NCBI RefSeq assembly: GCF_001485215.1
Contig: NZ_BBWW01000004.1
Span: forward strand, 1 to 64,000
Source: Leptolyngbya sp. NIES-2104
GTDB lineage: Bacteria; Cyanobacteriota; Cyanobacteriia; Leptolyngbyales; Leptolyngbyaceae
DNA: 64,000 nt
Direction of reading: 5' to 3'
A program made the translations under genes and the position numbers. The first letter of the stretch is position 1. Every line of letters starts with the position of its first letter. This document shows, one piece after another, positions 14,379 through 59,148 of the stretch. The notes under the pieces are model-generated. The model was not told the DNA's origin and did not search any database. It was given only the letters and a program-made list of their open reading frames with translations.

Positions 14379-15074
14379 CTATTTGAGTCGCTCAATTTTA
14401 ATTAGGGCATCATTGACGCGGGCGTTGATGTGATTCATTCCGATGGGACCGAACTTAATTAGAAGCCAAGTTAATAGGCTGGTCGCGATTGCAATTCTGC
14501 CCTCTTTAAAGAGAAAGCTCTTGATCGTTTTTTCGCTCTTCGGACTCTTGTTCTGATTTTTCTTCACTTGGCTCAGATCGGTCGAGAGGCTGTTGGATAC
14601 TCGCAGTATCTGGATGAGAATTTGAGGAACTGTGAACGTCTCGCCCGTTTGAGTGGTGACCAACCAGGACTTGTTTAAGTTCTGCAAACTCTGATCGGAG
14701 TTGTTGCAATGTGTTGAGATCGACTCCAATTCCCGATGGTTCTCGCTGATCAAGACCGCAATCTCGCTCTGTCCCTGTTTGAGAGCAAGCAGTGTGCTGG
14801 GTAGAGGTTTCAGCAACATAATCAGCTCGTTCAGTTGTCCAGCCGTCGCTGGCGCTGCCGCTGCTTTCATAGCTTGAGAAACTGAATCTCTTGACACTGG
14901 ATTTGGATTTCTTAAGGTTTGCGAACCGTTGGTAGAGGTGGAAGTTGGCTGATTCTTGGATTTGGGCTGCGGTTGGCTGGGGACTGACCCAGACGGCGGC
15001 TCCAGCAGAGTGGGCGGGCGTAGCGTCGATGGCGCTGCTTGTCGCTGCTGGCGTAGATCTTGAAACAAATTCAT
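14379..15074 (-). CDS. Proline-rich protein with C-terminal membrane segment, overlapping the relaxase gene
   Basis: A 231-residue protein starting MNLFQDLRQQ, with the ATG preceded by AAGGAGAGAG at a proper spacing. The first 90 residues are rich in Pro, Ser and Thr. A coiled-coil-like middle section follows (about 95-185), then one hydrophobic segment near the C-terminus (IAIATSLLTWLLIKF). Its first 569 bases overlap the 3' end of the relaxase gene in another frame. The frame is open for longer upstream, but this start has the ribosome site. It could be a small membrane-linked mobilisation accessory; no family was recognised. Confidence 0.65.
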   Translation of the reverse strand: MNLFQDLRQQRQAAPSTLRPPTLLEPPSGSVPSQPQPKSKNQPTSTSTNGSQTLRNPNPVSRDSVSQAMKAAAAPATAGQLNELIMLLKPLPSTLLALKQGQSEIAVLISENHRELESISTHCNNSDQSLQNLNKSWLVTTQTGETFTVPQILIQILRVSNSLSTDLSQVKKNQNKSPKSEKTIKSFLFKEGRIAIATSLLTWLLIKFGPIGMNHINARVNDALIKIERLK

Positions 15075-18023: not shown

Positions 18024-18418
18024 AAGGTTTTTAGCAATTTAGTGTCGGGTTACTTGTCTGAATGGTCAACAGGTAGAAAGTTATGTAAATCGATAGAGCG
18101 GAAAGCTGATGCTGTAAGGGTTTGAGCGTGTCGGATGACAATGGCAGCATCATGTCGATCGTCTTTCTCTAGGCTCCCTGCCTGGGCGTTGGGTGTGAAC
18201 TGCGTAGCCCCAGAGGGCGTAGCACCTATTTGCCAAATTACTAGGGCGATCTGTCAGAAAACTGTTGCCAGACCGCTGACAGATCCCTCTTCTATGCTGA
18301 TTGTGTGCGGTGCCAAAACACGCCCTTTTACTCCCAGAACCTTTGCCTTGCAGCAAGACTCGTAATTGTGAGTGCCCAACGCCGCCAATGCACGCCAACC
18401 ACACACAAGCCAACACCT
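18024..18418. other. Divergent intergenic region, candidate oriT
   Basis: This lies between the divergent mobilisation operon and the actin-like gene. It contains a perfect 10-bp inverted repeat, GATCTGTCAG at 18248-18257 and CTGACAGATC at 18276-18285, with an 18-base spacer, and several G/C-rich stretches. The relaxase operon reads away from it, as expected for oriT. No known nic sequence was recognised. Part may instead be the operator of the actin-like segregation operon. Confidence 0.4.
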
Positions 18419-19534
18419 ATGAGCAATTATCAGATTTTCGTTGATTTAGGTTTATCAGGAACAAAGGCAGGATTTATCGATAGAAGCATCTGCCATAGCT
18501 ATCTGTGTCCGCCCAAAGTGGCAGATTTGACACCTTCTGAACTGCAAATTCTTCGTGATCAAGGCGACCAATATGGAGGCGGTTTGGAGTCCGGTGCATA
18601 TCTTCAGCTTGGCGAATCGGCTTACGCGCTCGCCTCGGACGCAGAAGGACGACCAAACAAAACGACTGCCATGCTACGAAAAAGTGCTTTAGCGAACCTA
18701 CGGATTTTGGGAGCGATCGGAGAAATGGCATACCGCTTCAAAACGACTCATTTAGCGATCGACGTTGGCGTAGCGCTACCCTTTGATGAATATCTGTGTG
18801 ACCAAGCCGCGCTGATAGAAATTCTTTCTAAAACTAAATCGTTCGTCTATCGAGGACAACAGATCACCTTAGAGATTCAGACGATGAAGGTGCTACCAGA
18901 AGGCGCAGGATTAGTTCAGTGGCGCAAAATGCAGGCTGCTCAGAACAATGAGCCAGCCGATCAAACCTATGTAGTTGTCATGATTGGATACAGAGACCTA
19001 ACGTTTTTGCTGTTTCGAGAAGGCAAACCTCCAACTGGAGAGCCAAGCGGCTCAGTCAAGTTTGGTTATCTAGAATTCCTTCAGTCGATCGCGCGAGGAA
19101 TGTGCAAGCCAGAAAATCCATTTCTCTACGATGCACTTCTACGAAACGCAGATACAGTCGCATTTCCAGATCAGCCTGGTAAAGTCTTCTCACTCAAAGA
19201 GCGACGACAAAAATCGGAAGATTTCTATTGGGAGCAGATTCGACATCATTTAAGCGACAAATTCGCAGCGCTCAATTTTCCTCGATATGAAGTGTTGATT
19301 GGAGGTGGAACTGCATTGACGTTGTTACGTCCGCATCTGGCAAACTACCTGGAAACGCTACCGGGAGCAACGGTGAATTGGTTGCCAGCGCTGACGCATG
19401 AAATTACCAGAGTTTTCAAAGATATTCAGTTAGAAGCAGACCAGATAAGGTTTGGGGACTGCTATGGTGGCGCAAAGTGGTTAGCGGTTCGGAGCGCTCA
19501 TTCAGCTAAGAAAGCGGTGGGGAGAGTTTCATGA
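18419..19534 (+). CDS. ParM/StbA-like actin-family ATPase (first)
   Basis: A 371-residue actin-fold ATPase of plasmid segregation type. The phosphate-1 loop is FVDLGLSGTKAGF near the N-terminus, the second phosphate loop is probably VVMIGYRDLTFLLF, and the adenosine motif is EVLIGGGTALTLL. The frame is open from 18305, but ATG 18419 starts just before the first strand, as in ParM proteins. The next gene overlaps by 4 bases. ParM proteins polymerise into filaments that push plasmid copies apart with a ParR adaptor. Confidence 0.82.
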   Translation: MSNYQIFVDLGLSGTKAGFIDRSICHSYLCPPKVADLTPSELQILRDQGDQYGGGLESGAYLQLGESAYALASDAEGRPNKTTAMLRKSALANLRILGAIGEMAYRFKTTHLAIDVGVALPFDEYLCDQAALIEILSKTKSFVYRGQQITLEIQTMKVLPEGAGLVQWRKMQAAQNNEPADQTYVVVMIGYRDLTFLLFREGKPPTGEPSGSVKFGYLEFLQSIARGMCKPENPFLYDALLRNADTVAFPDQPGKVFSLKERRQKSEDFYWEQIRHHLSDKFAALNFPRYEVLIGGGTALTLLRPHLANYLETLPGATVNWLPALTHEITRVFKDIQLEADQIRFGDCYGGAKWLAVRSAHSAKKAVGRVS

Positions 19535-38801: not shown

Positions 38802-41800
38802 CTATCGGTGAAGCCAAACTCGAAGCGTAGACATCAGTTGATTAGTTTCCACCGGCTTTGTGATGTAATCTGAGGCTCCAGCTTCCATACATTTTTCGCG
38901 ATCGCCCCGCATTGCTTTTGCGGTTAGCGCAATGATCGGTAACCTTGAAAACTGACTGAGTTGCCGGATTGCCCGTGTCGTTTCGTAGCCATCCATTTCG
39001 GGCATCATGACATCCATTAGCACTAAGTCAATGTCTGGATGGTTTTGTAGCATTGTGATGCCTTCTCGACCATTTTCCCCATAGAGAATGTTCACTTGAT
39101 AGCGTTCTAATACACTGGTGAGGGCGAAAATGTTTCGCATATCGTCATCGACGATCAGAATTTTCTTACCTGCCAGCGTTAAATCTTGTTGCTGCGATCG
39201 CTCTAGCATTTCTCGCTGCAACTCTGGTAAATTTGCTTGCACCCGATGCAGGAACAAAGCGGTTTCATCAAGTAAGCGTTCAGGCGATCGCACATCTTTG
39301 AGGATGATCGTGTCTGAGATGCGGCGAAGTTCCCGTTCTTCTTGAGCACTTAGCTCTTTTCCAGTGTAAATAATAATCGGTAAGTGTTTTAGCTTAGGGT
39401 CTTGCTTCACTTGCTCAATAAAGGCAAATCCGTTTATATCAGGCAATCCTAGATCGAGTACTAGACAATCGAAGTGTCCCGATTTAAGCGCCTCTAAGGC
39501 TTCTGTCCCTGTACCAACAGCGGTACTAGCGACATCAGTGTTCCCGATCAGCTCAACAATACTTTGGCGTTGAACGTCGTCATCCTCTACAATCAGCAGA
39601 TTCTTAACTGAGCGATCGACAAACGCTTTAATGCTGGATAAGGCGTTGAGCAGTACCTCGCTGTTGATCGGCTTTTGCAGGTACGCGATCGCGCCTTGAC
39701 TTAAACTGCGTTGCAGTCCTTCCTCGACGGACATCACGTGAACCGGAATATGTCGGATATCAGGGTTATGCTTCAATCGATCTAATACCATCCACCCATC
39801 GAGAATCGGAAGGCGAATGTCGAGCATAATTGCCGTTGGTTTGAACTGTTGCGCCATTTCCAGACCGACATTGCCACGAGTTGCCACAAGCCCTTTGAAG
39901 CCTTGTTGCCTTGCCATATCCAGCAAGATTCGAGCAAAGTTCAAGTCATCTTCGATAATGAGCAGGGTGAAATCGTCTGACTGAATGGTTTCTCGATCAT
40001 CTTCGATCGCCTGATCAAACATCAATACTGGCTCCGATAGCTCAGTTGTGAGAGCCAGTGGTTGAGATGCGGGTTTAACCAGAACCCTTGATAGTGAGGA
40101 AGATGCTGCTGTCGTCGATTCAGATATCAGTGAATGCCAACGTCCACCATCATTTTGAGGGAGATAGAGCGTGAATGTGCTGCCTCGACCGGGTTCGCTC
40201 ACAAGCCGAATCTCGCCTCCTAACAAACGAGCAATTTCTCGACTAATCGACAAGCCTAAGCCTGTTCCTCCATACTTGCGAGAAGTGGTGCCATCTGCCT
40301 GCTGAAAAGCTTCAAAAATGACTTGTTGCTTGTCTGGCGCGATGCCAATTCCTGTATCAGAAACGGCAAAAGCGATCACTCGATCAGCCTGATTTAGCTT
40401 GTCTTGATCAGAACTCCAGCCCTCGATCGCTAAGCGAACATTGAGGCTAACTTGACCTTGCTCAGTGAACTTAAAGGCATTGGAGAGTAGGTTCTTTAAC
40501 ACTTGCTGCAACCGTTTGGAGTCAGTGTACAAACTGCGTGGCAACTGCGGATCGAAACTGATCTGAAAATCGAGGTTGCGGTCTTGGGCAACTTGACGAA
40601 ATGTGCGATCGAGATGATTACGAAGGTCAGTGAATGACATTGGCTCTGGATCGATCGACATCGTACCCGACTCGATTTTTGCCAGATCCAGAATGTCGTT
40701 AATCAGTTCGAGCAGGTCGTTTCCAGCGGAATGGATCGTTCGTGCATATTCCACCTGCTTTTCAGTCAGGTTGTGATCGCTGTTGTCAGCAAAGAGCCGC
40801 GCCAAAATGAGCAAACTATTCAGTGGGGTTCTCAACTCATGAGACATATTGGCGAGAAACTCAGATTTGTATTTAGAACTTAGAGCAAGCTGTTCGGCTT
40901 TTTCTTCTAGCGATCGTCGAGCTTGTTCAATTTCTTGATTTTTGCGTTCAACTTCTTGGTTTTGAACTGCTAACAATTCTGCTTTCTCTTGCAGTTCCTC
41001 ATTGGTTTGCTGAAGTTGTTCTTGCTGATTCTTGAGTAAGTCTTCAGAGGCTTTCAGAGATTGAGCTTGCTGTTCTAGTCGTTGATTTGTTCCGGTGAGT
41101 TCTTTCTGTTGGCTTTGCAGTTCTTCTGCTAGAGATTGGGACTGTTTGAGCAACTCCTCGGTTCGCATACTTGCTGCGATCGTATTGAGAACGATAGCAA
41201 TGCTCTCGGTCAACTGATCAAAAAAGGTCAAATGAATATCGCTAAATCGCGAGAACGAGGCAAGTTCGATCACAGCCGTCACTTGTCCTTCAAACAATAC
41301 CGGAAGGGCGACGGCATTCAAGGGACTCGCTTCACCCAATCCAGAACTGATTTTGATATAGTCAGCCGGAACTTCAGTGAGCAAAATACGCTCTTTCTCT
41401 AGGGCACACTGTCCGATTAGTCCTTCGCCTAGCTGGAAGCGGTTGCCTAAGTGTTTGCGCTCTCGATAAGCATAAGTGCTAAGTAGCTTGAGAAAGCCCG
41501 AATGATGATCGCTGCTTTCCATTAGGTAAAAGACACCATGCTGCGCTGAAACGAGCGGAGCCAATTCCGACAAAATGAGCTTGGAAACCGCTTCGAGATC
41601 GCGCTGACCTTGCAGCATTCGCGTGAACTTCGCCAAGTTAGTTTTGAGCCAGTCTTGCTCAGTATTTTTCTGAGTAGTTTCGCGCAGATTGGCGATCATT
41701 TGGTTGATGTTATCTTTTAACGCAGCAACTTCCCCCTGCGCTTCGACCGCAACCGATCGCGTTAAATCTCCCTTGGTGACCGCCGTTGCCACCTCAGCGA

Positions 41801-44627
41801 TCGCTCTTACTTGAGTCGTCAGATTCGCTGCGAGTTCGTTGACGTTATCGGTCAAGTCGCGCCAGGTTCCTGATGCTCCCGGAACTTTTGCCTGCCCCCC
41901 CAGCTTTCCTTCGATGCCCACTTCTCGTGCCACAGTTGTTACTTGGTCTGCAAACGTCGCGAGCGTATCGGTCATCTCGTTAATAGTGTCAGCTAATGTT
42001 TCGATTTCGCCTTTGGCATCGAGCATTAACTTCCGTTTCAAGTCACCATTCGCCACGGCTGTTACTACTTTGGCAATGCCTCGGACTTGAGCAGTGAGAT
42101 TGCTCGCCATTGAGTTCACATTGTCGGTCAAATCCTTCCAGGTTCCCGCTACGCCAATGACTTGAGCTTGACCCCCTAACTTTCCTTCGGTTCCGACTTC
42201 CCGCGCTACCCGCGTCACTTCCGAAGCAAAAGAACTCAACTGATCGACCATTGTGTTGATCGTGTTTTTGAGATCGAGAATTTCACCTTTCACGTCCACT
42301 GTGATTTTTCTAGACAGGTTGCCATTCGCGATCGCCGTTGCGACTTCTGCAATGTTCCGTACTTGGGCAGTCAAGTTACCTGCCATCGAATTCACGTTAT
42401 CGGTCAAGTCCTTCCAAGTGCCACCAACGCCGCGAACATACGCTTGCACCCCTAATTTTCCTTCGGTTCCGACTTCCCGTGCCACCCGCGTCACTTCCGA
42501 AGCAAATGAGTTAAGCTGATCCACCATCGTATTGATCGTGTTCTTGAGTTCAAGAATCTCACCTTTCACATCCACGGTAATTTTCTTGGAAAGATCACCA
42601 TTTGCCACCGCCGTGGTTACTTCAGCAATGTTTCTCACTTGTGCAGTTAAACTGCCTGCCATGAAGTTCACACTATCGGTTAAATCCTTCCAGGTTCCCG
42701 CCACGCCAGGAACTTGCGCTTGTACACCAAGCTTTCCTTCAGAACCCACTTCCCGCGCCACCCGCGTCACTTCCGAAGCAAATGAATTGAGTTGATCCAC
42801 CATCGTATTAACAGTGTTTTTCAACTCTAGAATTTCACCTTTCACATCGACGGTGATTTTTTTAGAGAGATCCCCATTTGCCACCGCTGTTGTCACTGCT
42901 GCAATATTTCGCACCTGTGCTGTTAAACTGCCTGCCATAAAGTTTACGCTGTCGGTCAGATCCTTCCAGGTTCCTGCTACGCCCCGCACATCTGCCTGTA
43001 CACCGAGCTTTCCTTCAGACCCCACTTCCCGCGCTACCCGCGTCACTTCCGAGGCAAAAGAACTGAGTTGATCCACCATCGTATTGATCGTGTTTTTCAA
43101 CTCTAAAATTTCGCCTTTCACATCGACGGTAATTTTCTTGGACAAATCACCATTTGCTACCGCTGTTGTGACCTCAGCAATACTTCGCACCTGTGCCGTC
43201 AGGTTGCCCGCCATGAAATTCACGCTGTCGGTCAGATCCTTCCAGGTTCCCGCGACACCTTGAACCTGCGCTTGCACACCCAGTTTTCCTTCGGTTCCCA
43301 CTTCTCGCGCCACTCGCGTGACTTCTGAAACAAAGGAATTGAGTTGATCCACCATGATATTAATGGTGTTCTTGAGTTCAAGAATCTCACCTTTGACATC
43401 CACAGTGATTTTCTTAGACAAATCACCATTTGCTACCGCTGTAGTGACTTCCGCAATGTTCCGCACCTGCGCCGTTAAACTGCCTGCCATAAAGTTCACG
43501 CTGTCGGTAAGGTCTTTCCAGGTTCCCGCTACGCCTTTAACTTGTGCTTGACCGCCGAGTTTCCCTTCTGCGCCCACTTCTCGCGCTACCCGCGTCACCT
43601 CTGAAGCAAACGAGTTGAGTTGATCCACCATCGTGTTGACGGTGTTCTTAAGCTCAAGAATTTCACCTTTCACATCCACAGTGATTTTCTTGGACAAATC
43701 ACCATTTGCTACCGCTGTAGTGACTTCCGCAATGTTCCGCACTTGGGCAGTGAGGTTGCCTGCCATCGAGTTCACACTGTCGGTCAAATCTTTCCAGGTT
43801 CCCGCCACGCCGCGCACATCAGCTTGCACCCCTAGTTTTCCTTCAGTTCCCACTTCTCGCGCCACCCGCGTCACTTCCGAGGCAAACGAATTAAGCTGAT
43901 CCACCATCGTATTGATCGTATTTTTCAACTCCAAAATTTCGCCTTTCACATCGACGGTGATTTTTTTCGACAAGTCTCCATTCGCCACCGCTGTCGTCAC
44001 TTCCGCGATGTTCCGCACCTGAGCGGTGAGGTTGCCCGCCATCGAGTTCACACTGTCGGTTAAATCTTTCCAGGTTCCCGCCACGCCAGGGACATCTGCC
44101 TGTACCCCCAACATCCCTTCGGTTCCCACTTCTCGCGCCACTCGCGTCACCTCTGAAGCGAACGAGTTGAGTTGATCCACCATTGTGTTAACAATTTGAG
44201 CCGTTTGCAGGAACTCGCCTTGCAGCGGTTTGCCCTCAATTTCGGTCGCGATCGTTTGCGTCAAATTTCCCGTTGCTACTGCCCGAATCACCCGCGTTGT
44301 TTCGGTCATTGGCTGCACCAAGTCGGTGATCAACGTATTCACAGACCCGATCGATGCTTTCCAAGCACCTCGCGCATTGTCGATCGAAGCTCGTTCGCTA
44401 ATCTTGCCTTCTTTACCAACGACCGTGCTGATGTGTTCTAGCTCGGTTGCCATTTGCTCATTCATCTCAATAATGTCGTTGAGCGTATCCGCAATTTTGC
44501 CTGCGATTCCAGTTTGCTCGATCGGCATTCTGGCTGAGAAATTACCTTTTTTAACTTCAACCAGGGTTTTGAGAAGCTGCTGGAGGTCAAGGGTATCCGA
44601 GTCAACGGTGCGAGGTACAGTAGTCAT
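38802..44627 (-). CDS. Giant cytoplasmic hybrid histidine kinase with HAMP array and three receivers
   Basis: A 1941-residue kinase without obvious membrane segments. Residues about 10-950 are roughly ten HAMP-type units of 92 residues, most containing [20 protein letters not shown] and [14 protein letters not shown] domain, a long coiled coil, HisKA ([12 protein letters not shown]) and an ATPase domain ([19 protein letters not shown]) follow. Three receivers end it, with phosphorylated Asp in [25 protein letters not shown] and [13 protein letters not shown]. Tandem HAMP kinases resemble fungal group III (Nik1/Os-1) osmosensors. The signal is unknown; it likely shares an operon with the truncated kinase. 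Confidence 0.95.
42200..44190. repeat. 276-bp tandem coding repeats of the HAMP array
   Basis: The GATCCACCAT-type segment recurs at 276-base steps near 44174, 43898, 43622, 43346, 43070, 42794 and 42518, with a variant near 42242 (92 codons per unit). Units are highly similar in DNA, so recent expansion or gene conversion is likely, and short-read assembly may miscount them. Confidence 0.85.
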
Positions 44628-46549: not shown

Positions 46550-47269
46550 TCAGTCAATCTTTAGTAGAAAATCATCGATGCTGAACGATGTTAATACAGG
46601 TGCCTTGAGCGCAATTCCTTCGCCTTCGTCGTTGTCCTGAATGTGCCAAGACCAGATACGGCATCTCAAATCTTTCGGTACGCGCACAAGAGCCACATGA
46701 TTAACTTGTGGATTAACGGATTGATAAGAACAAATTCTTCCACCATATAGCCTACCTGCTACATGAGAACAAGCTCTAGAATCCTTGTGACATATATTGC
46801 ACAAATATTTATCTACTATTATTCCAGGGCTAAGATACATACCATTGCCAAAAGCCTTTTGGAAAAAGCTCTCTAAGCCATCTAAAGACTGAGCAACTTT
46901 CCTGATTACTTCACCTTGATAGAATCGGGATGCAAATTCAAGCCTTTCTTTGCAATCGCACAGCTTAATCCATACCTGTTCCACGATCAAATTATGCTCA
47001 TGCCATCTACCATTACTAGTGGCTTGACATATTTGAACAGAATCATGCAATCCTTTGATGAGGATTAGTAGAATAAGCAGTTTATTGTACTCATTGTCAT
47101 CTACTTCAAAGACACGTTGCTTGAATGCAGAGCCATAATTGGTTATAAAGTTTGTGCAGAGTAAATCTGCTTCCTCATACTGCTTATTGAACATCAGCTT
47201 CAACCATGTTTCAACTAACTCTGAAACATGAATTTCAAAGTCTACCGATTCAGTCTTTAGTTTCATCAA
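46550..47269 (-). CDS. Unrecognised protein with Cys/His cluster, third gene of a small operon
   Basis: A 239-residue protein. The N-terminal 130 residues are helical. Then comes YLCNICHKDSRACSHVAGR with a following Gly-rich turn and Cys (GGRICSYQ), a C-x2-C-x6-C-x-H cluster likely to bind zinc. A beta-rich C-terminal section follows. It overlaps the previous gene by 20 bases. The cluster resembles one seen in uncharacterised prophage-type proteins; no function can be named. Confidence 0.65.
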   Translation of the reverse strand: MMKLKTESVDFEIHVSELVETWLKLMFNKQYEEADLLCTNFITNYGSAFKQRVFEVDDNEYNKLLILLILIKGLHDSVQICQATSNGRWHEHNLIVEQVWIKLCDCKERLEFASRFYQGEVIRKVAQSLDGLESFFQKAFGNGMYLSPGIIVDKYLCNICHKDSRACSHVAGRLYGGRICSYQSVNPQVNHVALVRVPKDLRCRIWSWHIQDNDEGEGIALKAPVLTSFSIDDFLLKID

Positions 47270-47522
47270 TTTCGTCTTGATTGTTGATGCCTTTCAAAAT
47301 CCTCAAAAAAGTATCTGCATCACCGTGAAACGTAATTTCACTAGATGCTTTTTCATCCACAATTTTTAGATTGACATGGACTCTTGTTTCGTCTGGCTTC
47401 CCAGAAAGTTGAGAGAGTTTTTGCTGTTTGGAGGACTCTAATTCCTTCTGAATTTTTTCTCCTAGTAGGCGACCTATCACACTGATCAATAAGGGGAGTA
47501 CAGCATGGTTGAGAATCCACAC
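47250..47522 (-). CDS. Small protein with N-terminal hydrophobic segment
   Basis: A 90-residue protein. A short hydrophobic N-terminus (ILNHAVLPLLISVIGRLLG) is followed by a charged helix and a small beta-rich domain (RVHVNLKIVDEKASSEITF, then a helix). It lies between two unknown genes, 9 bases after one and overlapping the other, so all three are probably co-expressed. Membrane attachment is likely but not certain. Confidence 0.6.
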   Translation of the reverse strand: MWILNHAVLPLLISVIGRLLGEKIQKELESSKQQKLSQLSGKPDETRVHVNLKIVDEKASSEITFHGDADTFLRILKGINNQDEIDETKD

Positions 47523-47843: not shown

Positions 47844-50800
47844 TTAAGCAGCCCAATCCTTGCAAAGTGTTTCAGCTTGAGCAAGAACGGTTTGAGTTGC
47901 TTTCTCCTGCTTGTCAGGTGGATAACCGTATTTCCGCAGTAGTCGTTTGACGATCGTGCGAAGTTTTGCTCGAACGGTTTCGCGTTCTGTCCAGTCGATA
48001 CTGACGTTGCGTCGGACTGCTTCAACCAGGTCACGTGCGATCGCTTTTAGCGTCGCATCGCCCAAAACTTGAACTGCACTGTCATTCACTTCAAGCGCGT
48101 CATAAAAAGCGAGTTCATCCTCGGATAATCCCAGACTCTCGCCGCGTCGATTCGCTTCACGCATCTCTTTTGCGAGTTCAATCAACTCTTGCAGCACCTG
48201 AGCCGATTCGATCGAGCGGTTTTGATAACGCCGGATTGTGTTTTCTAGCATCTCTGAGAAGCTGCGGGCTTGAACAACATTTCGGGCTGATTTGGTGCGA
48301 ATTTCATCATTTAGTAGTTTTCGCAGAACTTCTAGTGCTAGGTTCTTTTGGGGAATGTCGCGGACTTCTTCTAAAAATTCGTCGGATAGAACCGAGATTT
48401 CGGGTTTGTCGAGTCCAGCGGTCGCGAGAATGTCGATGACTCCATCAGATGCAACGGCACGAGAAACAATTTGACGGACGGCTGCATCGAGTTCTGCTTT
48501 GCCTTTGCTGCCTTCAATCGTATGTTTAGAAAGAGTTGCTTTGATTGCTTGAAAGAACCCAACTGTTTCTCGAAGCGCGATCGCAGTTTCTTCTGTACCA
48601 CAGAGGGCGAAAGCTTTAGAAAGCTCAGTCACCGCTTGAATATATCGCTGTACGCTGTTGTCCACTTGAAATTCCGGGCGAAGAACCCAGTCTGTGGCTT
48701 CTCGTAAAACAGTTAATCGCTCTGGAGGAGTACCTGTAAAAAACTGGGAATAGTCAAAGCCGTGGAACATTGCAGCAACAATTTCGTACTTCTCCTGCAT
48801 CAGAGCGACGGCTCCTTCAATGGGAATGCCTGTCTCACCACGATCGCCTTCTGTGTAGTCCATCAAAGCAGATTTCAAATCTTGGGCAATGCCCAGATAA
48901 TCGACGACAAGACCTCCTGGCTTTTTCCCAAAGACCCGATTGACGCGGGCGATCGCTTGCATCAGGTTGTGCCCTTTCATCGGTTTGTCGATGTACATCG
49001 TGTGCAAACAGGGTGCATCGAAGCCTGTGAGCCACATATCGCGAACGATTACCAGTTTGAGGGGATCTTGAGGATTGCGAAGACGATTTGCGATCGCATC
49101 CCGCCCTTTCTTAGAACGAACATGAGGCTGGAGCAGTTCGCTATCTGATGCACTGCCCGTCATCACGACTTTGATTTCACCTGCGTCGTCTGAGTCGGAG
49201 TGCCACTCTGGGCGAAGTTTGATGATTTGCTTGTAGAGTTCAGCACAGATGCGGCGACTCATGCAGACAATCATTCCTTTGCCTTCCATTGCAGCAAGTC
49301 GATCGTCAAAGTGGGTGAGAATATCTTGAGCCACCAATTCTAAGCGCTTCTCTGTGCCGACCATTGCTTCGAGTTGTGCCCATTTACTTTTGAGCTTGTC
49401 CTTGGTCGTTTGTTCTTCGCCTTCGGTGACATCTTCAAACTCAGGATCAATCTTGGGCTTCTCGCTGGCTTCGAGTGTGATTTTGGCGAGTCGGGCTTCG
49501 TAGTAGATGCTGACGGTCGCTCCATCTTGAACGGCACGCTGGATGTCGTAGATGTCGATGTAATCGCCAAAAATTCGACGGGTGCTGGCATCGGCTTTAT
49601 CGATCGGAGTTCCAGTGAAACCGATAAAGGAGGCGTTGGGTAAAGCATCACGCAGATACTTTGCGAACCCATAAGCGGTGTATGCCCCATCTTCTCCAGT
49701 GGCTTGGTCTTTAGTTTTAATGACTCGTGCTTGGAGTCCATATTGAGAGCGGTGAGCTTCATCAGCAATGAAAATGATATTGCGGCGATCGCTCAACATT
49801 TCATATTCGCCGCCGCGATCTTCTGAGGCGAATTTCTGAATGGTGGTGAAGATTACGCCGCCAGACGCGACTTGAAGCTTATTTTTGAGGTCAGCGCGAT
49901 CGTCGGCTTGAACGGGAGTTTGTCGCAGTAAGTCTTGGCATTTAGAAAAGGTGGTGAAGAGTTGATCGTCTAGATCGTTGCGATCGGTGAGAACAACGAT
50001 CGTAGGATTTGCCATTGCTGGATGCTGCACGATTTTTCCAGCGTAGAATGCCATCGATAAGCTTTTGCCTGACCCCTGAGTGTGCCAGATTACGCCTACT
50101 CGTTTGTCGCCTTGGGGAGAGATAGCTTGGACGGTTTCGGCTACGGCTTTGTTGACGGCGTGATATTGGTGATAGCCTGCTATTTTTTTGATGATGGTTG
50201 CGCCATCGACTTCGTAGACGATGAAGAAGCGGATCAGGTCGAGGAAGCGGGTTTTCTCAAATACGCCGCGAATGACGACTTCGAGTTCGGGGGTGTTTTT
50301 GGGAGCGAGATCATCACCATCGATCGTGCGCCAGGGCATAAAGCGTTCCCGATCGCTGGTAATCGTACCAATGCGAGCATCTAATCCATCAGAGATAACG
50401 AGGGCAGCATTGTAAGCGAACAGGCTAGGAATATCGCGTTTGTAGGTCTGAAGTTGGTTGAAAGCTCCTTCGATATCAGCGTTTTCGCTGGCAGCGTTTT
50501 TGAGTTCAATCACTGCCAGAGGAATTCCATTGATGAAGACGACAAGATCGGGGCGGCGATTTTTGCGGTTTTCGATCACGGTGAACTGGTTGACTACGAG
50601 CCAGTCGTTGTTGTTGGGGTCTGTCCAGTCGATCAGCCATGCTTGGTCGTGGATAGTACGATCGTCGTTTTGATAAACGACAGGTACGCCATTGCTAAGG
50701 AGACGGTGGAAGCGTTGATTATTTTCGACGCTGTTCTGGGTTTCGGAGCGAAGAACTTGTCGAATGACTTCATCGATCGCTTCTGCTGGAAGTTGGGGAT

Positions 50801-50975
50801 TAATTTGAGCGATCGCGTTTCGTAATCGATTTTCTAGAATGACTTCGCTGAGTTTTTGGCGCTCGGCGTTAGGTTCTCCGGGAGCAATGTCGTAGCCGCA
50901 GAGGTAGGAGTAGCCGAGGGTTTCAAAGTAAGAGAGGGCAGCGAGTTCTACATCGGTTTCAGTAAAGTTGCTCAT
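47844..50975 (-). CDS. hsdR: Type I restriction endonuclease subunit HsdR (locus 2)
   Basis: A 1043-residue HsdR. The nuclease site has RRPDLVVF (Asp143) and VIELK (155-159). The motor has Walker A GSGKS (301-305), [13 protein letters not shown] and [10 protein letters not shown]. It is intact. It is only moderately similar to the locus 1 HsdR, so the two loci are independent systems rather than a recent duplication. It is separated from its hsdS by the reverse transcriptase gene on the other strand. Confidence 0.95.
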
Positions 50976-51189: not shown

Positions 51190-51448
51190 AGATAGCTCAC
51201 TTCACCTTTAAGGATGCTGAGTTACATTTAAATCGCCTGTATATGAGTATGCAGGGAGGATGGTTTACCACGGACTTGCCTGCGAAGAGTAGTGCTGGTT
51301 TGAGAAACTTGTCACACATATAGTTTTGCTGACGGTGCTTCCTTGAGTAGTAACATTCCCAAGAGAGTGACAGTAGCGCGTGCGCTAGGGGGTCGTGTGG
51401 ATGCCGTCTATCCTGACCTCCTAGCTCTGCTATATCAACGAGGCACTT
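51190..51448 (+). ncRNA. Candidate structured leader/ncRNA of the reverse transcriptase
   Basis: The 473-base gap 50976-51448 precedes the reverse transcriptase. An 11-bp stem pairs 51384-51394 with 51415-51425 (one G-U), only 23 bases before the start codon. A smaller stem pairs GCAGG (51251) with CCTGC (51279). In the sense direction one frame is free of stops from 51192 to 51320 and another from 51304 to 51453. DRT2 systems carry a template RNA just upstream of the enzyme gene. Boundaries here are guesses. Confidence 0.4.
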
Positions 51449-51456
51449 ATGTCTAA
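51343..51456 (+). CDS. Possible short leader ORF overlapping the reverse transcriptase start
   Basis: The frame gives a 37-residue peptide from TTG 51343, with AVYPDLLALLYQRGTYV at its end, and stops at 51454-51456, 8 bases into the reverse transcriptase gene. The amino-acid pattern looks protein-like, but no ribosome site was found. It may instead be template RNA sequence. Confidence 0.25.
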   Translation: MSSNIPKRVTVARALGGRVDAVYPDLLALLYQRGTYV

Positions 51457-52726
51457 ATTTAGAGATGCCGAATCGAATGATTGGTACAGATCCCGTGGCT
51501 ACATCCATTTCGACCGCGAGGTATCTAGAAAATTTGCTCAGGCCTACATAACAGATTGCAAGAGAGTTGAGCGCCACGCATTCTTTCCTTTTCTCAAATA
51601 CGTTAAAGTTACTCCTCGATATAAGTCTAAAATTCGCAAAACCCAAGATAAAAATCGTCCTATTCTCTATGCAGGACATCTAGATTCTCATATTTATGCT
51701 TGGTACGCACGAGAACTTAGTAAGCTTTACGAAATATATATACAGGCGCAACCTTTACAAGATTGTGTAATTGCCTATCGTTCCTTGGGAAAATCAAATA
51801 TTGATTTCTCCAGAGAAGTATTTGATCAAATTGAAAAAAAGCAAGAATGCACAGCATTGACTTTCGATCTATCAAGTTTTTTCGACAACATTGATCATGA
51901 GAAATTAAAAGCGGCATGGTGCGAAGTTCTTGGTACTGAAAAACTTCCTGATGATCACTACAAAGTTTATAAATCTATTACTAAATATGCTTACGTTGAT
52001 CGTCAGGAAGCTATTGATGCGCTTGAAATTACCAACTATAAAGAGATAAGGGATAATAGACGGCTCTGCACACCGCAGGAATTTCGTGACTGTATTAGAT
52101 CTAAAATATGTGTTAATTCTAATTCGTATGGTATTCCACAGGGTTCACCAATAAGTGCAGTTCTATCTAATTTGTTTCTTATTAATTTCGATAAAGTGAT
52201 GTCACAGCACGCTTTTAGAGTGAATGGTATTTATCGAAGATATTGTGATGACATCTTGTGGGTCTGTCCTTCAGAAGAATCTGAAGAAATAAAAGCTTTA
52301 GTTGAGCAGGAGATTAAAAAAAGTGGAGATGCTCTTTCTCCAAATTCTGAAAAAACTGAAATCTCTAACTTCAGTCGGACAACGGAAGGTTTGCTGCTCG
52401 GCTCACCTCCACTTCAATATTTAGGCTTTACGTTCGATGGGCAGAATCGATTACTACGCTCTCAAACTGTTGCTCGGTACTACCAACGCATGAAACGAGC
52501 AGTTCGTTCAGCAGGTTATGCTGCCAATCAAGCGGGGGATGATAAGATTCATTGCAAAAAACTATATGAGAAGTATAGCCATTTAGGGCAGCGTAGCTTC
52601 ATCAAGTATGCTTTTCGTTCAAGCAAGACCATGAACTCCCCAAAAATTCGCAGGCAAGTACGCAATCACTGGATAAAACTGCATCAAGCAATTGAAAAAG
52701 TTGAAGCAGAATTAAGAGAAGACTGA
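51449..52726 (+). CDS. Antiviral-type reverse transcriptase, DRT2 (UG2)-like
   Basis: A 425-residue reverse transcriptase. Motif A is TFDLSSFFDNIDH (Asp140), motif B GIPQGSPISAVLSN (228-241), the catalytic box YRRYCDDIL (YCDD 265-268) and motif E LQYLGFTFDG. It also has RPILYAGHLDSHIY and SLGKSNIDF near the N-terminus. There is no maturase/X domain or HNH as in group II introns, and no retron VTG signature. The overall pattern matches UG2/DRT2 anti-phage enzymes as remembered. It lies on the opposite strand between hsdS and hsdR, a defence setting. Confidence 0.85.
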   Translation: MSKFRDAESNDWYRSRGYIHFDREVSRKFAQAYITDCKRVERHAFFPFLKYVKVTPRYKSKIRKTQDKNRPILYAGHLDSHIYAWYARELSKLYEIYIQAQPLQDCVIAYRSLGKSNIDFSREVFDQIEKKQECTALTFDLSSFFDNIDHEKLKAAWCEVLGTEKLPDDHYKVYKSITKYAYVDRQEAIDALEITNYKEIRDNRRLCTPQEFRDCIRSKICVNSNSYGIPQGSPISAVLSNLFLINFDKVMSQHAFRVNGIYRRYCDDILWVCPSEESEEIKALVEQEIKKSGDALSPNSEKTEISNFSRTTEGLLLGSPPLQYLGFTFDGQNRLLRSQTVARYYQRMKRAVRSAGYAANQAGDDKIHCKKLYEKYSHLGQRSFIKYAFRSSKTMNSPKIRRQVRNHWIKLHQAIEKVEAELRED

Positions 52727-52757: not shown

Positions 52758-54050
52758 TTATAGCTGAGATTCAACAAAGCTCTGAATGTCCTTTACAAGT
52801 GTTTTACCAGCTAGAAGTGCTGGCAGTAGAGTGTCACGGATTGAGAGAAGGGTTAATATTTGTTGTGCTTGGTTTTCCACGCATTGATCTAACGGAAAGG
52901 CTAGTTGCTCAAACCTTCTGATGGTTGCTACTGAAGGAACAATACAAGGTATTGAGAGAAAATCTTTTTTACTCATCGAGCCAAATATCGTTCCTTTTGC
53001 CTCAAAACGAGCAAAATGCTCATTAAGTCCTTGCATGGTGTAGTAGGTATAGGAGCGACTACCATCTTTATGTCGTGCAGCAGCAACTCCACGACCAATA
53101 CAACATTGTTCACTTGCCAGATTGATATCTCCAACAGGAGCACGAACACTAATTAGAGTATCCCCAGCATTAGCGAAGCGAGTTGGAGCGTTACAATAAA
53201 CACGAACGGACGGATAGCGAGAACCAAAATCTTTACGCCCTTGATAAAAAGGTAATCCTTTCTTATCTTGATTGTAGGTTGAGCTTGAAGGTGACTGACC
53301 CATTGTAATTTGGAATTCGTCCTCCACAACTCCTACCCTCCATCCCTTTGGAATTTCGCCTAGTACCGAACTCTCAAACTCAGCAGGAAACAGAGCCGCT
53401 GTTTCAGCATCTATACCTATGAGCTGTTGATCGTCCATTTTTGCCCGAACCGGATCGAAATCAACAAACCATGACTTAAACAAGGCACGAGTGATCGCTT
53501 CCAGCGTTTGATTCATCTGCTGGTTGAGTTCGATTTTATCGTCAAGAGAGGAGAGAATTTGAGCAATCGCTTTTTGCTTATTAATTGGCGGGAATGGTAA
53601 TAATTGAGCAGAAAAGGTATCGCGAGAAAGACTTGGATTAGAGGTTCCATCCTTTAGGTGATTTAGACCAATATACTTTGTAAGGTAGTAAAAGAATTTA
53701 AGGTCGAGAGAAGGTGTGTTAGGAGTGACATAGTAAGCCGTATCGATAACCCAAAAATCGGACTCACACCACTCAACGCCGAGCGGTCCCATACCCTTTC
53801 TTCCAAGAATTACTCCCGGACCTTTCACTAAGCCCTCGTTATGCCATCCACACCGTCCGTTAGTACCATATACAGGAATGTCACCAGAAATTCGGTTCTT
53901 CTCAACGAGTCCCTTTCCATAATTGAGAGTTACTAAACTGTCAGCGCGAACTAACGGATACTTAAAGACGGTATTTTGGGAGAAACCACGTGGAAAAGTT
54001 CCTACAACATTTCCTGAGTTGACAAATTCGATCAATTCGCGAACATTCAT
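52758..54050 (-). CDS. hsdS: Type I restriction-modification specificity subunit HsdS (locus 2)
   Basis: A 430-residue HsdS with two target-recognition domains and two spacer helices. The first spacer reads KQKAIAQILSSLDDKIELNQQMN with LFKSWFVDFDPV, the second LTLLSIRDTLLPALLAGK. It lies 7 bases after the toxin gene in the hsdM operon. The target site cannot be inferred. Confidence 0.94.
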   Translation of the reverse strand: MNVRELIEFVNSGNVVGTFPRGFSQNTVFKYPLVRADSLVTLNYGKGLVEKNRISGDIPVYGTNGRCGWHNEGLVKGPGVILGRKGMGPLGVEWCESDFWVIDTAYYVTPNTPSLDLKFFYYLTKYIGLNHLKDGTSNPSLSRDTFSAQLLPFPPINKQKAIAQILSSLDDKIELNQQMNQTLEAITRALFKSWFVDFDPVRAKMDDQQLIGIDAETAALFPAEFESSVLGEIPKGWRVGVVEDEFQITMGQSPSSSTYNQDKKGLPFYQGRKDFGSRYPSVRVYCNAPTRFANAGDTLISVRAPVGDINLASEQCCIGRGVAAARHKDGSRSYTYYTMQGLNEHFARFEAKGTIFGSMSKKDFLSIPCIVPSVATIRRFEQLAFPLDQCVENQAQQILTLLSIRDTLLPALLAGKTLVKDIQSFVESQL

Positions 54051-54057
54051 CTACTTC

Positions 54058-54501
54058 TCAAGCCTCCATTTCGCCCACCACCAAAACGCGCAATTCTGTC
54101 ACTCGTTTCAGTTGAATATCATTTGTTAAAAACGCATCACAATTTGCTGCGATCGCGGTTGCAATCTGTAGCGCATCTGGCAACTGAAAATTGTATTCAA
54201 ATCGAATTCTTGCAGCTTCACGAGCAATCATCCGGGAACTCTCCACAAACACCACATTCTCACTGTCCAGAATCTCTAAATAAGCCTGCTGCAACGCTGC
54301 TAAGTTCAATCGCAACGCACCCACTAGGCATTCTGCGATCGTCACTGGACTCACAACAGCCGTAATCTCGGCTTCCAACCGTTCAAAGATTGGGTCAACC
54401 ACCCCAACAAACTGCGGATTCCGCTCAACAAAATAAATCACAGGAGACGTATCCAGAAATAGCCGAGAAACTCCTGACACCTCATCGTCAATTTGCATCA
54501 T
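54058..54501 (-). CDS. vapC: PIN-domain toxin (VapC-like), locus 2
   Basis: A 147-residue PIN-domain protein. The acidic residues are Asp in LFLDTSPVIYFVE, Glu in IAECLVGAL, Asp in LPDALQIATA and Asp in FLTNDIQL. Its ATG overlaps the antitoxin stop by 4 bases. It is not closely similar to the locus 1 toxin. The gene sits inside the hsdM-hsdS operon. Confidence 0.87.
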   Translation of the reverse strand: MMQIDDEVSGVSRLFLDTSPVIYFVERNPQFVGVVDPIFERLEAEITAVVSPVTIAECLVGALRLNLAALQQAYLEILDSENVVFVESSRMIAREAARIRFEYNFQLPDALQIATAIAANCDAFLTNDIQLKRVTELRVLVVGEMEA

Positions 54502-54779
54502 TCCCCTCGTGATAGTCGATCGCGATGTTCATCTCCTTCCCGTCGAGTCCGTGACACCCATTCTTGAGCATCTTCCCCCATCATCGGATAAGGAGCCATC
54601 CCCTTAAGATCACTCCACTTACGTTTCGGTCTTGGATTCTCCTCAGCAATGCCTCGTTTGGGCTTATTTTGCGTCACTGCCTGACGTTTTAGTTGCTCTG
54701 CGGTGTGATTTAGGACTTCAAACTGCTCTTCTAGCGTGAGTTGATCAATGTCTTGCAGCACTTGCTGTAATGAAGTCAT
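54498..54779 (-). CDS. Antitoxin-like partner of the PIN toxin, locus 2
   Basis: A 93-residue protein. A helical N-terminus ([21 protein letters not shown]) is followed by a basic, Pro-rich segment and an acidic tail. Its start overlaps the hsdM stop and its stop overlaps the toxin start, both by ATGA. The N-terminus resembles small plasmid antitoxins with a short helical module. The call rests mainly on position. Confidence 0.65.
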
Positions 54780-56359
54780 AACCCCAACCTCCTAAGATTT
54801 TCTCGAATCGCTATCTCTAATTTGGCACTTTCAGCAAACTGCTGGTCGAGCGTCTGGGTCAACCTCTGCATCTTTTCCTCAAACGGCTCATCGTCCTCGA
54901 TCAAGTCTTCCGCCCCCACATATCGTCCCGGAGTTAGCACATACCCATGTGATTTAATGTTTTCCAGCGTCGCACTTTTACAAAATCCTGCCACATCTGC
55001 ATACACCCCAGCCTCCGGTTCGCCACGCCACGCATGATAAATTCCCACAATCCGGTCAAGCTCTGTTTCAGTGAGTTCTCGATGTGTGCGATCGACCAAA
55101 TTCCCCAGCTTCCGCGCATCAATAAATAGGGTTTCTCCCCGTCGATCTCTGAGCGGCGAAAATCCTTTTACGCCGATCGCCCCTTTCTTATTGCGCGTCA
55201 CAAACCACAAACACGCTGGGATTTGCGTAGTGTAAAACAACTGCCCCGGCAGCGCGATCATGCAGTCCACCAAATCCGCTTCTACGATCGCTTGACGAAT
55301 GTCTCCCTCGCCCGACTGGTTAGAACTCATCGACCCATTCGCCAACACAAAGCCAGCAATTCCATTCGGTGCGAGATGATGAATCATGTGCTGCACCCAG
55401 CCATAATTCGCGTTGCCTTTGGGCGGGGTGCCATACTGCCAGCGCACATCATCCGCAAGCGACCCATTCCACCAATCACTGATGTTAAAGGGCGGATTTG
55501 CCAAGATGTAATCCGCCTTCAGATCCTTGTGCAAATCATTCGTGAAACTGTCCGCTTGTCGATCGCCAATATTGCCGTCAATTCCCCGAATTGCCAAATT
55601 CATCAAACACAGTCGCCGCGTGGTCGGGTTTGACTCCTGCCCATAGATGGCAATGTCACCCTTACGCCCGCCATGCGCCTCAACGAATTTCTCCGACTGC
55701 ACAAACATTCCACCTGAACCGCAACAGGGATCATAAATTCGCCCTTTATACGGCTCAATCATCGCAACTAATAGCTTCACGACCGACTGCGGTGTATAGA
55801 ATTCTCCGCCCCCTTTGCCCTCCTTCTCAGCAAACTGCCCCAGGAAATATTCATACACCCGCCCCAAAATATCCTGGGATCGACTGGCAGCATCTCCTAA
55901 CCCAATCCTGCTAATCAGATCAATCAGTTCACCCAACCTTTGTTTATCGAGATCCGGTCGGGCATACTGCATCGGCAATACGCCTTTGAGTCGCGGGTTC
56001 TCTTTCTCGATCGCACTCATTGCCTCATCAATCAGCTTGCCGATCGTCGGCTGTTTTGCATTTGCCTGAATGTGCGACCATCGCGACTCTTTCGGAACCC
56101 AAAAAACGTTTTCACCCACATACTCATCTCGGTCTTCAGGATCGGTGTAGTCCGTTTCTTGTCGGCTTGCTAAGTTGTCGTAGAGTTCCTGGAACGCATC
56201 TGAAATGTATTTAAGAAAAATCAGCCCCAGCGCAACGTGTTTATACTCAGCAGCATCCATGTGACCACGCATCTTGTCAGCCGTTGCCCACAGCGTTTGT
56301 TCAAAACCCAGATTTGCGCCATTGCCGTTTTTGCCGTTCGTTCCTTTTTTCGTCGCCAC
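54776..56359 (-). CDS. hsdM: Type I restriction-modification methyltransferase subunit HsdM (locus 2)
   Basis: A 527-residue N6-adenine methyltransferase of normal length. The SAM motif is DPCCGSGG (210-217), the catalytic motif NPPF (288-291), and [14 protein letters not shown] precedes the SAM motif. The N-terminal helical domain is [17 protein letters not shown]. It is from a different HsdM branch than the 704-residue locus 1 subunit. It heads a tightly coupled operon with the TA pair and hsdS. Confidence 0.96.
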
Positions 56360-56506: not shown

Positions 56507-57151
56507 ATGCCGATCGTCGCAATCATTAATCAAAAGGGCGGAGCAGGCAAATCCACCATTGCAGTTCACCTTACCCGTTGGCTCCAGAAGCAGAAGAAGT
56601 CTGTCGTGGTTGCGGATGCAGACGCTCAATGCTCATCCTCAAAGTGGCTATTGCGACTTGAGCAAGACGTACCCTGTGAAATTATTCAAGCTCCGGATAC
56701 ACTTCTGGACGAACTCCCTAAATTACTTGAAAAGTACGACTGGGTAATTGTCGATGGTCCGGCTGCACTCTCCGAAACCACAAGAGCCGTGATCCTCGTG
56801 GCAGATTTAGCGATCGTACCCTGCCAGCCAACAGGCGTTGATCTCGAAAGCGCCTCAGATACCGTTCGCTTAATTCATCAGGCACAACGCATCCGTCGCG
56901 GCGATCCGAAAGCTGTGATGTTTGTGAACCGAGCCGTTAAAGGGACCAAGCTGAAAGATGAAGCGATCGAAGTATTGCGCCTTATGCCGGGAGTCACAGT
57001 TTTAGAAACCGTAATTCATCAGCGTCAAATTCTGGCAGACTGTTTTGGGCAGAACTCAACAGTATTTGACTTGACAGGCTCGACGGCTGGAATTGCTCGA
57101 CGCGAACTAGAGCAACTTTTTAAGAAAGCGCTGGAGGTATTAGATGGCTAA
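56507..57151 (+). CDS. parA: ParA-family partition ATPase (copy 2)
   Basis: A 214-residue ParA with the canonical KGGAGKST Walker A just after the start, VADADAQ and VIVDGPAA. There is no N-terminal DNA-binding domain. It is a close paralogue of the ParA at 237, sharing DLAIVPCQPTG and RAVKGTKLKDEA. The downstream parB overlaps by 8 bases. It segregates plasmid copies with ParB bound at parS. Confidence 0.95.
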   Translation: MPIVAIINQKGGAGKSTIAVHLTRWLQKQKKSVVVADADAQCSSSKWLLRLEQDVPCEIIQAPDTLLDELPKLLEKYDWVIVDGPAALSETTRAVILVADLAIVPCQPTGVDLESASDTVRLIHQAQRIRRGDPKAVMFVNRAVKGTKLKDEAIEVLRLMPGVTVLETVIHQRQILADCFGQNSTVFDLTGSTAGIARRELEQLFKKALEVLDG

Positions 57152-58085
57152 ATCGAGACAATCGCTAACTCAGGGCTTATCGGCATCGATCGCCCAGAAG
57201 TTTATTGAAAATCCCGAAAGCGTTGACCCTTCGCAAACGCTCTCCCTTGGGCAAATTCATCTTCCGAACAAGCAACCCCGACGCTACTTTGATCCGCAGA
57301 AGCAGGCACAGCTCGTCCAATCTGTCCGGGAGTATGGCATTTTAGAGCCATTACTCGTTCGTCCTCTGGAGAATGGAGCTTACGAGTTAGTCGCAGGTGA
57401 GCGGCGCTACCGCGCAGCAAAAGAGCTTGGACTTCAAGATGCTCCCGTGGTGGTCAAGGAGCTTAACGATCAACAGGCGCTTCGAGTATCGCTGATTGAG
57501 AATCTACAACGAGAAGACCTCAATCCAGTCGAAGAAACAGAAGCCATTTTAGATTTACTTGCGATTCAAATTGGCGGGAGTCGTGATGATGTTGCTTCGG
57601 TTTTGCACCGAGCCAATCACGCAAAAACTCGTGAGCAAGAACTGGAGGGAAACGTTTCCCTCCAGCTTCAAACGATTGAATCTGTTTTGGAAGAAATTGG
57701 TCGCTTCAATGCTGAATCCTTTCGTACCAGCCGTTTACCGCTACTTAAGTTGCCGTCCGAAGTTCTACAAGCACTTCAAGAAGGAAAGCTTGAATTTACA
57801 AAAGCGCGAGCGATCGCACGAGTAAAAAGCGAACAGCAACGCAAATCACTACTTAAGCTGGCAATATCAAAGAACCTGAGCTTGAGTGAAATCAAACAAA
57901 AGATCGCAGCAGTCTCCCCTCCTCAAGAAAAAGCACCAGAAGTCAGCTATGCTCAACGATATGCTCAGATTGGACAACGGTTGAGAAAGTCAGCAATCTG
58001 GGAAGATCCCAAAAAGCGAATTAAGCTAGAAAAATTGCTTTCTCAACTTGACGATTTGATTGGAACTGAGAATCCATCAAATTAA
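57144..58085 (+). CDS. parB: ParB-family partition protein
   Basis: A 313-residue ParB. The CTP-binding ParB/Srx domain shows IHLPNKQPRRYFDP, the VAGERRYRAAKELG box (about 92-105) and SLIENLQREDLNP. A helix-turn-helix region follows (about 135-230) and a charged C-terminal dimerisation part. It loads on parS and stimulates ParA. It differs from the small RHH partner used by the other ParA locus. Confidence 0.94.
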   Translation: MAKSRQSLTQGLSASIAQKFIENPESVDPSQTLSLGQIHLPNKQPRRYFDPQKQAQLVQSVREYGILEPLLVRPLENGAYELVAGERRYRAAKELGLQDAPVVVKELNDQQALRVSLIENLQREDLNPVEETEAILDLLAIQIGGSRDDVASVLHRANHAKTREQELEGNVSLQLQTIESVLEEIGRFNAESFRTSRLPLLKLPSEVLQALQEGKLEFTKARAIARVKSEQQRKSLLKLAISKNLSLSEIKQKIAAVSPPQEKAPEVSYAQRYAQIGQRLRKSAIWEDPKKRIKLEKLLSQLDDLIGTENPSN

Positions 58086-58110
58086 ATTTTCAACCTATAG
58101 CTGTGCCACC

Positions 58111-59148
58111 GTGACTGATCAATCCTCACTCTTCTCGCAAAACTATGATGCTTTCCTCAATAGATTGAAGGAGCGCATTCGTCACGCTCAAGTGTTGGCT
58201 GCCACAGCTCTTAACCGAGAAGCAATTTTACTGTATTGGCAGCTTGGTAAAGAAATTCTAGAGCGACAAGAGCGCGAAGGTTGGGGAGCAAAAGTTGTCG
58301 ATCGACTTGCTAAAGATTTACGACGCGAATTCCCTGATGTGCAAGGATTTTCGGCGCGAAACCTCAAATACATGAGGGCATTTGCGGAGGCATATCCAGA
58401 CGTTGAAATTGTGCAACGGCTGTTGCACAAATTGCCGTGGGGTCATTTGATTCGATTATTGGACAGTGTGAAGGATTCAGACCAGCGACTCTGGTACGCG
58501 CAGCAAGCGATCGAGAATGGCTGGAGCCGAACGATTTTGGAGTATCAGATTGAGAGTGGATTACACAAGCGGCAAGGTGGAGCAATTACAAATTTTGAAC
58601 AGACGTTACCGCAGCCCCAATCTGACCTGGCAAGAGATTTAATCAAAGATCCGTACAACTTCTCGTTTCTGACGCTGGGTAAAAATGCCCAAGAGCGAGA
58701 TCTTGAAAATGCGCTTGTCGCACACATTCGAGACTTTTTATTAGAGCTGGGAATGGGATTTTCTTTCATGGGAAGTCAGTACCCAATCGCAGTGGACGGA
58801 AAAGATTACAAACTGGATTTGTTGTTTTATCATGTTCGACTGCGTTGCTATGTGGTTATCGAACTCAAAATGGTGGAGTTTGAGCCAGAGTTTTCCGGCA
58901 AGCTTAATTTCTACGTCTCGGCGATCGATGATTTGCTACGGCATGAAGATGACCAACCCACAATCGGCATTATTCTTTGTAAGTCAAAGCGAAGAACCAC
59001 AGTAGAGTATGCGCTTAGAAATGTGAGTACACCGATCGCAGTTTCCACCCACCAATTACCAGATCAGTTAAAAGAAAATCTACCGTCGAGCGAACAGCTT
59101 GAAATAGAGATTGATACTAAGCTTTCTGAAATTGCAAATCAGGAGTAA
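58111..59148 (+). CDS. YhcG/DUF1016-family PDDEXK nuclease
   Basis: A 345-residue protein from GTG 58111 (an upstream in-frame TTG at 58060 lies inside parB). The N-terminal DUF1016 part has ILLYWQLGKEILERQ and FSARNLKYMRAFAEAYP. The C-terminal nuclease domain shows YKLDLLFYHVRLRCYVVIELK, the Asp and ExK of a PD-(D/E)XK site. YhcG proteins often accompany restriction and defence genes; their cellular role is not settled. It lies 25 bases after parB. Confidence 0.9.
   Translation: MTDQSSLFSQNYDAFLNRLKERIRHAQVLAATALNREAILLYWQLGKEILERQEREGWGAKVVDRLAKDLRREFPDVQGFSARNLKYMRAFAEAYPDVEIVQRLLHKLPWGHLIRLLDSVKDSDQRLWYAQQAIENGWSRTILEYQIESGLHKRQGGAITNFEQTLPQPQSDLARDLIKDPYNFSFLTLGKNAQERDLENALVAHIRDFLLELGMGFSFMGSQYPIAVDGKDYKLDLLFYHVRLRCYVVIELKMVEFEPEFSGKLNFYVSAIDDLLRHEDDQPTIGIILCKSKRRTTVEYALRNVSTPIAVSTHQLPDQLKENLPSSEQLEIEIDTKLSEIANQE

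Follow-up and report, generated by a model that had tools for sequence, protein, structure and literature searches.

The DNA analysed here, a window of 64,000 nucleotides from Leptolyngbya sp. NIES-2104, probably carries a compact cyanobacterial DRT2 abortive-infection system, in which rolling-circle reverse transcription would write a neo gene. In DRT2, an example discovered recently, the protein-coding gene does not exist until an RNA has been copied into tandem DNA. On balance, we also favour the reading that the DRT2s of cyanobacteria are a lineage of their own, one that makes neo genes from half-length templates (57–75 nt), which would encode endless repeats of 19–25 residues, probably of one helix each. 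A direct repeat beside the pseudoknot, free to vary but changing in step at both ends, would define the template ends in place of a constant ACA. The template itself, which is the effector code, would evolve far faster than the rest. The compact format, the units of about 60 nt, the variable non-ACA jump motif, and the repeats of 19–25 residues are new here. The location of the RNA, the shortness of the template, and its non-ACA boundary go beyond the initial annotation, which had been made from the sequence only. The features are listed in Table 1.

Table 1. Features of the candidate DRT2 locus and its surroundings (positions in the window)
Feature	Position	Strand	Basis
Drt2 (UG2) reverse transcriptase, 425 aa, YCDD	51449–52726	+	NF041746; PADLOC Drt2; identity to Klebsiella DRT2
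Putative ncRNA promoter TTCACC-16-TACATT	51201–51228	+	Read by eye
Predicted DRT2 ncRNA, about 197 nt, ends predicted	51233–51430	+	Elements conserved in three cyanobacterial relatives
5' handle hairpin CCUGUAUA-UGAG-UAUGCAGG	51236–51255	+	Predicted fold and relatives
GTTT, first copy of the direct repeat, at the start of the predicted template	51263–51266	+	Shuffle P 0.042 when taken alone
Predicted 60-nt template of one repeat	51263–51322	+	Geometry common to 4/4 cyanobacterial loci
Predicted neo repeat unit of 20 aa without stops, YMCDKFLKPALLFAGKSVVN	51263–51322	-	Antisense translation
GTTT, second copy of the direct repeat, where jumped cDNA would re-anneal	51323–51326	+	
Pseudoknot strand GACGG	51331–51335	+	Pairs with CCGTC at 51404
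3' scaffold, RT-13-like; stem 51384–51394/51415–51425	51378–51430	+	RF03017
Pseudoknot partner CCGTC, apical loop of 3' stem	51404–51408	+	Covariation
hsdR, type I restriction subunit, RT neighbour	47844–50975	-	TIGR00348, 657 bits
hsdS, RT neighbour	52758–54050	-	PF01420; PADLOC Specificity_I, E 1e-82
hsdM, beyond hsdS	54776–56359	-	PF02384, PF12161; PADLOC MTase_I, E 9e-229
TrwC-type relaxase/helicase	14506–17715	-	
ParA-like genes	168–875 and 56507–57151		
ParB	57144–58085		
Actin-like protein	18305–19534		

The reverse transcriptase (RT) is encoded by an intact ORF with an ATG start. The initial annotation had described a stand-alone YCDD enzyme of the UG2/DRT2 type, lying in reverse orientation between hsdS and hsdR, and these points are borne out. 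Drt2 is by far the best profile: NCBIfam NF041746 is matched with 514 bits against a curated cut-off of 390, and the PADLOC Drt2 model with an E value of 3e-157. A phmmer comparison with the solved DRT2 chains gives an E value of about 1e-109, and the protein shares 45% identity with Klebsiella DRT2, whose structure is solved (PDB 9c0i/9lje). The YCDD motif corresponds to residues 265–268 (Y265, C266, D267, and D268), and the other catalytic aspartate is D140. All of these residues are invariant when the RT is aligned with five relatives including Klebsiella DRT2. By these comparisons, the product of the gene is a Drt2/UG2 enzyme.

The nearest relatives of this RT are encoded on two plasmids, of Calothrix sp. 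NIES-4105 (L090) and PCC 7716 (L091). They are 55–56% identical to it and are annotated as hypothetical protein in the plasmid records. One further relative, L192 from genome G1281, was recovered by a profile search of a separate sample of 293 genomes from a different order. In a tree of 23 rows, the window, both Calothrix RTs, and L192 form one clade (support 98/98), set apart from 15 other DRT2s including that of Klebsiella. No relative at E 1e-40 was found among 389 other sampled genomes of the window's class, and no close DRT2 among 41 other sampled genomes of its order. A single-sequence scan of genome contigs returned a few distant DRT2-like matches, the best of them from Kurthia, and such a scan of viral contigs returned none. 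The initial annotation had noted that cyanobacterial plasmid examples appear little studied. Our literature search for DRT2 in cyanobacteria gave nothing specific; among the papers searched, only one general review pairs the two.

A nearby RNA to be copied had been proposed at the outset, and a candidate of the DRT2 type is found upstream of the RT gene. Judged by its handle, pseudoknot, and RT-13-like scaffold, it is the partner RNA that a DRT2 requires. The MFE and centroid folds both contain the handle hairpin, which is kept, with sequence changes, in L090, L091, and L192. At the place homologous to the putative ncRNA promoter, Calothrix has TTGCCA-18-TATATT, also read by eye. In the Klebsiella-type RNA, the counterpart of the pseudoknot strand GACGG is the GCGG after ACA-2. 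An equivalent pairing with compensatory changes is seen in 17 DRT2 loci (GCGG/CCGC, GTGG/CCAC, ACGG/CCGT, GCGAC/GTCGC, and GGGGC/GCCCC); for this count the strand contexts had been chosen by eye beforehand, and the context typed for L111 has no exact match there. In the Klebsiella structure (PMC12596737), R389 of the thumb makes contact with G155 at the pseudoknot end. By our own count G155 is the first G of this GCGG, which supports the assignment of the strand.

The 3' scaffold is matched end to end by the Rfam family RT-13 (RF03017) with 34.8 bits (E 2e-5 to 2e-4), a score below the curated gathering score of 69.1 for RT-13. No Rfam match in the whole window exceeds its gathering score. The scaffold match is the sole RT-13 match in the 6.4-Mb genome (E 1.3e-4). 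Other DRT2 loci match the sister family RT-12 (RF03016) in the corresponding place, and RT-12 fits the 3' scaffold of the Klebsiella-type loci. The RT-12 score is above threshold in L107, L109, and L093, and below it in L092 and L191. Since RT-12 scores above threshold on DRT2 3' scaffolds, this family seems to describe a portion of the DRT2 ncRNA. The matches above threshold lie at L107:2153–2287, L109:133–256, and L093:2846–2958, all outside the cyanobacterial clade. A literature search found no paper linking RT-12 or RT-13 to DRT2. Folded without pseudoknots, the entire window RNA shows no unusual stability (z −0.88).

Published DRT2 units are 111–129 nt long with an ACA terminal motif (PMC12039810 and PMC11100668). 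The copied segment of Klebsiella begins about 6 nt past the handle, with ACA recurring 6 nt ahead of GCGG; these offsets are our own reading of close relatives, while the motifs and lengths are those of the two papers. The predicted unit of the window departs from this, with GTTT as its motif and a length of 60 nt. The units of L090 and L091 are both 75 nt, bounded by TTACTTAT and ATTCA, and that of L192 is 57 nt, bounded by GTTTAT. The layout of the RNA is the same in all of these relatives as in the window; their direct repeats are longer than its own, and L192 also has a longer scaffold. In four of the four cyanobacterial loci, the repeats lie 5 to 7 nt after the handle and 8 to 10 nt before the pseudoknot strand, and the unit is divisible by three with an antisense strand that stays free of stops across the junctions. 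Dinucleotide shuffling, which scores a repeat that long with an open unit divisible by three within the set offsets, gives P values of 0.042 for the window, <0.0003 for L090, 0.0077 for L091, and 0.0007 for L192. The offsets were set after the cyanobacterial sequences had been viewed, and the control loci agree with them.

Seven non-cyanobacterial controls (L103, L104, L105, L110, L112, L114, and L190) have ACA at +6 and at −6 or −7, with units of 99–129 nt. Two controls have another motif and a stop-free unit divisible by three, namely AGAT with 111 nt in L093 and AGTA with 126 nt in L189. Because these motifs also depart from ACA, the ACA motif and the length of 111–129 nt would be a trait of the Klebsiella clade and not of the family. 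The ACA pair of L107 and L108 falls outside the four top-ranked repeats, L106 and L191 have no stop-free unit at these offsets, and the same offsets give no clear-cut template unit in L111 and L092. In a blind scan that used motif length and promoter score, without the handle or pseudoknot, other units outrank the 60-nt unit of the window; the same scan recovers several control templates as well as the units of L090 and L192. The exact unit of the window is thus read from its relatives, since the window itself offers just a 4-nt repeat and a weak junction promoter. In a distant DRT2 on a viral contig (L118:2720–2871), a unit of 150 nt bounded by AGTATTA is predicted, which exceeds the published lengths and has a perfect TTGACA-17-TATAAT junction promoter.

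The two Calothrix loci provide a natural experiment. Their RT genes are 94% identical at the DNA level, the handles 90%, the 3' stems 91%, and the segments from pseudoknot to stem 85%. The template units are only 55% identical, without a gap over 75 columns. The divergence begins past the handle and ends at the pseudoknot strand, and the direct repeat has switched from TTACTTAT to ATTCA on both sides together. Confined as it is between the handle and the pseudoknot strand, the divergence delimits the template without recourse to the repeat search. This suggests that the encoded repeat changes rapidly with its length and frame kept, and that the change is confined to the encoded effector. A comparison of the two units by codon position shows no third-position excess.

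The same boundary bears on whether the locus is instead a standard DRT2 whose long template (105–129 nt) extends into the proposed scaffold, as in Klebsiella, which we regard as unlikely. In the window and in both Calothrix loci, the antisense frame stays open from the handle as far as GCGTGCGC, and the Calothrix loci also permit units of 117 nt (GAA) and 123 nt (TTA) at matching places. However, longer units would take in the conserved block beginning ACGGGCGCC, and the Calothrix divergence argues against them by stopping at the pseudoknot strand. Inside the window RNA, no motif of at least 3 nt bounds a stop-free unit of 105–129 nt, and L192 has no long open frame. The only stop-free ACA–ACA pair of that length (51224 to 51353, 129 nt) begins in the putative −10 box of the ncRNA promoter, ahead of the handle, and was rejected. 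The 117- and 123-nt Calothrix units were judged less likely, as they enter the conserved scaffold and pass the pseudoknot.

On the cDNA strand, the unit opens with a −10-like hexamer in the window (TATATG), L091 (TACAAT), and L192 (TATGTT); in L090 the best −10 (AATAAT) straddles the repeat junction. For a sigma-70-type promoter that spans the junction, with a −35 element 17–18 bp upstream of the −10, the match is good in L090 (TTGTCA-17-AATAAT, P 0.001) and L192 (TTGACA-18-TAAACT, P 0.006), and fair in L091 (TTGCTA-17-TACAAT, borderline at P 0.056). That of the window (TTCGCA-18-TATATG, P 0.16) is no better than chance. Such a weak promoter would suit a DRT2 that acts without a Neo protein, with the cDNA itself or another product as the effector. 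According to PMC11100668, Neo is harder to annotate in divergent DRT2 clades, for which Tang et al. suggested alternative mechanisms. We consider this quite unlikely here, as all four units are divisible by three and stop-free, and the junction promoters are strong in two relatives. The weak promoter, the 4-nt repeats, and the RT-13 match below the gathering score could also be signs of a decayed or non-functional plasmid copy. Against this, the RT frame is intact with every catalytic residue kept, and the handle, pseudoknot, and 3' stem are intact as well, which makes decay improbable. That the RT is not a DRT2, the outcome that the initial annotation had linked to a best match with a group II intron, a retron, or another UG class without an RNA partner, is refuted by the profile scores and has next to no probability, since the group II maturase (TIGR04416, 81 bits of 300), retron St85 (65 of 235), retron Ec67 (33 of 450), Drt3a (64.5 of 200), and Drt4 (25 of 450) profiles all give weak RT-domain scores below their cut-offs, far from the Drt2 score, and a DRT2-type RNA lies upstream.

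The compact DRT2 system that we favour starts from the observed RT identity, RNA elements, shared template geometry, divisibility by three, and open frame. The RT would bind the upstream RNA of roughly 200 nt through the 5' handle, the pseudoknot, and the RT-13-like 3' scaffold, and would copy the short segment 51263–51322 into cDNA. At the end of this segment, the nascent 3' end would re-pair with the second copy of the motif just before the pseudoknot and restart, and the product would be tandem cDNA in units of about 60 nt. Phage infection would then trigger second-strand synthesis, and promoters formed across the repeat junctions of the double-stranded tandem DNA would drive an endless, stop-free mRNA. 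Its translation into a repetitive Neo protein, with repeats of 20 residues here and 19–25 in the relatives, would halt growth. Priming, jumping, the phage trigger, transcription, and toxicity are carried over by homology from the Klebsiella system.

The locus resembles the DRT2 of Klebsiella pneumoniae (PMC12039810, PMC11100668, and PMC12596737) in RT family, length, and YCDD. Common to both are an upstream RNA made up of a 5' handle, a central template, a pseudoknot, and a 3' scaffold, a terminal motif repeated at both template ends, and an antisense stop-free frame of a length divisible by three with a −10-like element at the junction. In contrast, the template is 60 nt here (57–75 nt in the clade) versus 120 nt (published 111–129), the clade motifs take the place of ACA, and the match to a junction promoter is weak in the window. 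The RNA has about 197 nt versus 280 nt in Klebsiella, and the cyanobacterial RTs are without about ten thumb-linker residues that are present there. This shortening is in line with the smaller RNA; the linker region contacts RNA in Klebsiella (PMC12596737). DRT10 and telomerase also make short templated tandem-repeat DNA from an RNA partner; DRT10 is a different system, described as protein-primed (PMC12632851). If the half-length lineage holds, it would separate the essentials, namely divisibility by three, matched end motifs, and a pseudoknot stop, from free features such as ACA and the 120-nt length. It would offer a smaller writer of repeat genes, and would tie RT-12 and RT-13 to DRT2 RNA scaffolds.

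The RT gene sits inside a type I restriction-modification (RM) locus, on the strand opposite to hsdR, hsdS, and hsdM, with a gap of 473 bases to hsdR. Between hsdM and hsdS, a PIN-domain toxin-like gene (54058–54501, −) and its small upstream partner (54498–54779) resemble a toxin-antitoxin pair placed within the RM operon in the same orientation. Downstream of hsdR, two overlapping ORFs (46550–47522, −; 90 and 239 aa) have no match in Pfam, NCBIfam, or PADLOC, and are possible uncharacterised partner or defence genes. No RM genes are annotated directly beside the Calothrix RT genes. In L093, a Photobacterium plasmid, an integrase gene and type I RM genes (4367–7284) likewise come after drt2, so that the proximity of DRT2 to type I RM may recur.

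With a length of 84 kb, the host contig is one of five in a genome of 6.4 Mb. It fits a plasmid, since it carries a TrwC-type relaxase and ParA/ParB genes, and its gene content suggests a mobilizable plasmid that has more than one partition system. At 1355–9933 (+), the same contig carries another type I RM system, the second on it, with hsdM at 1355–3469, hsdS at 4178–5455, and hsdR at 6679–9933. A YhcG/DUF1016-type PDDEXK nuclease gene (58060–59148, +) adjoins parAB. At 38802–44627 (−), a hybrid histidine kinase of 1941 aa contains about ten near-identical HAMP-like repeats, as seen by eye in the translation.
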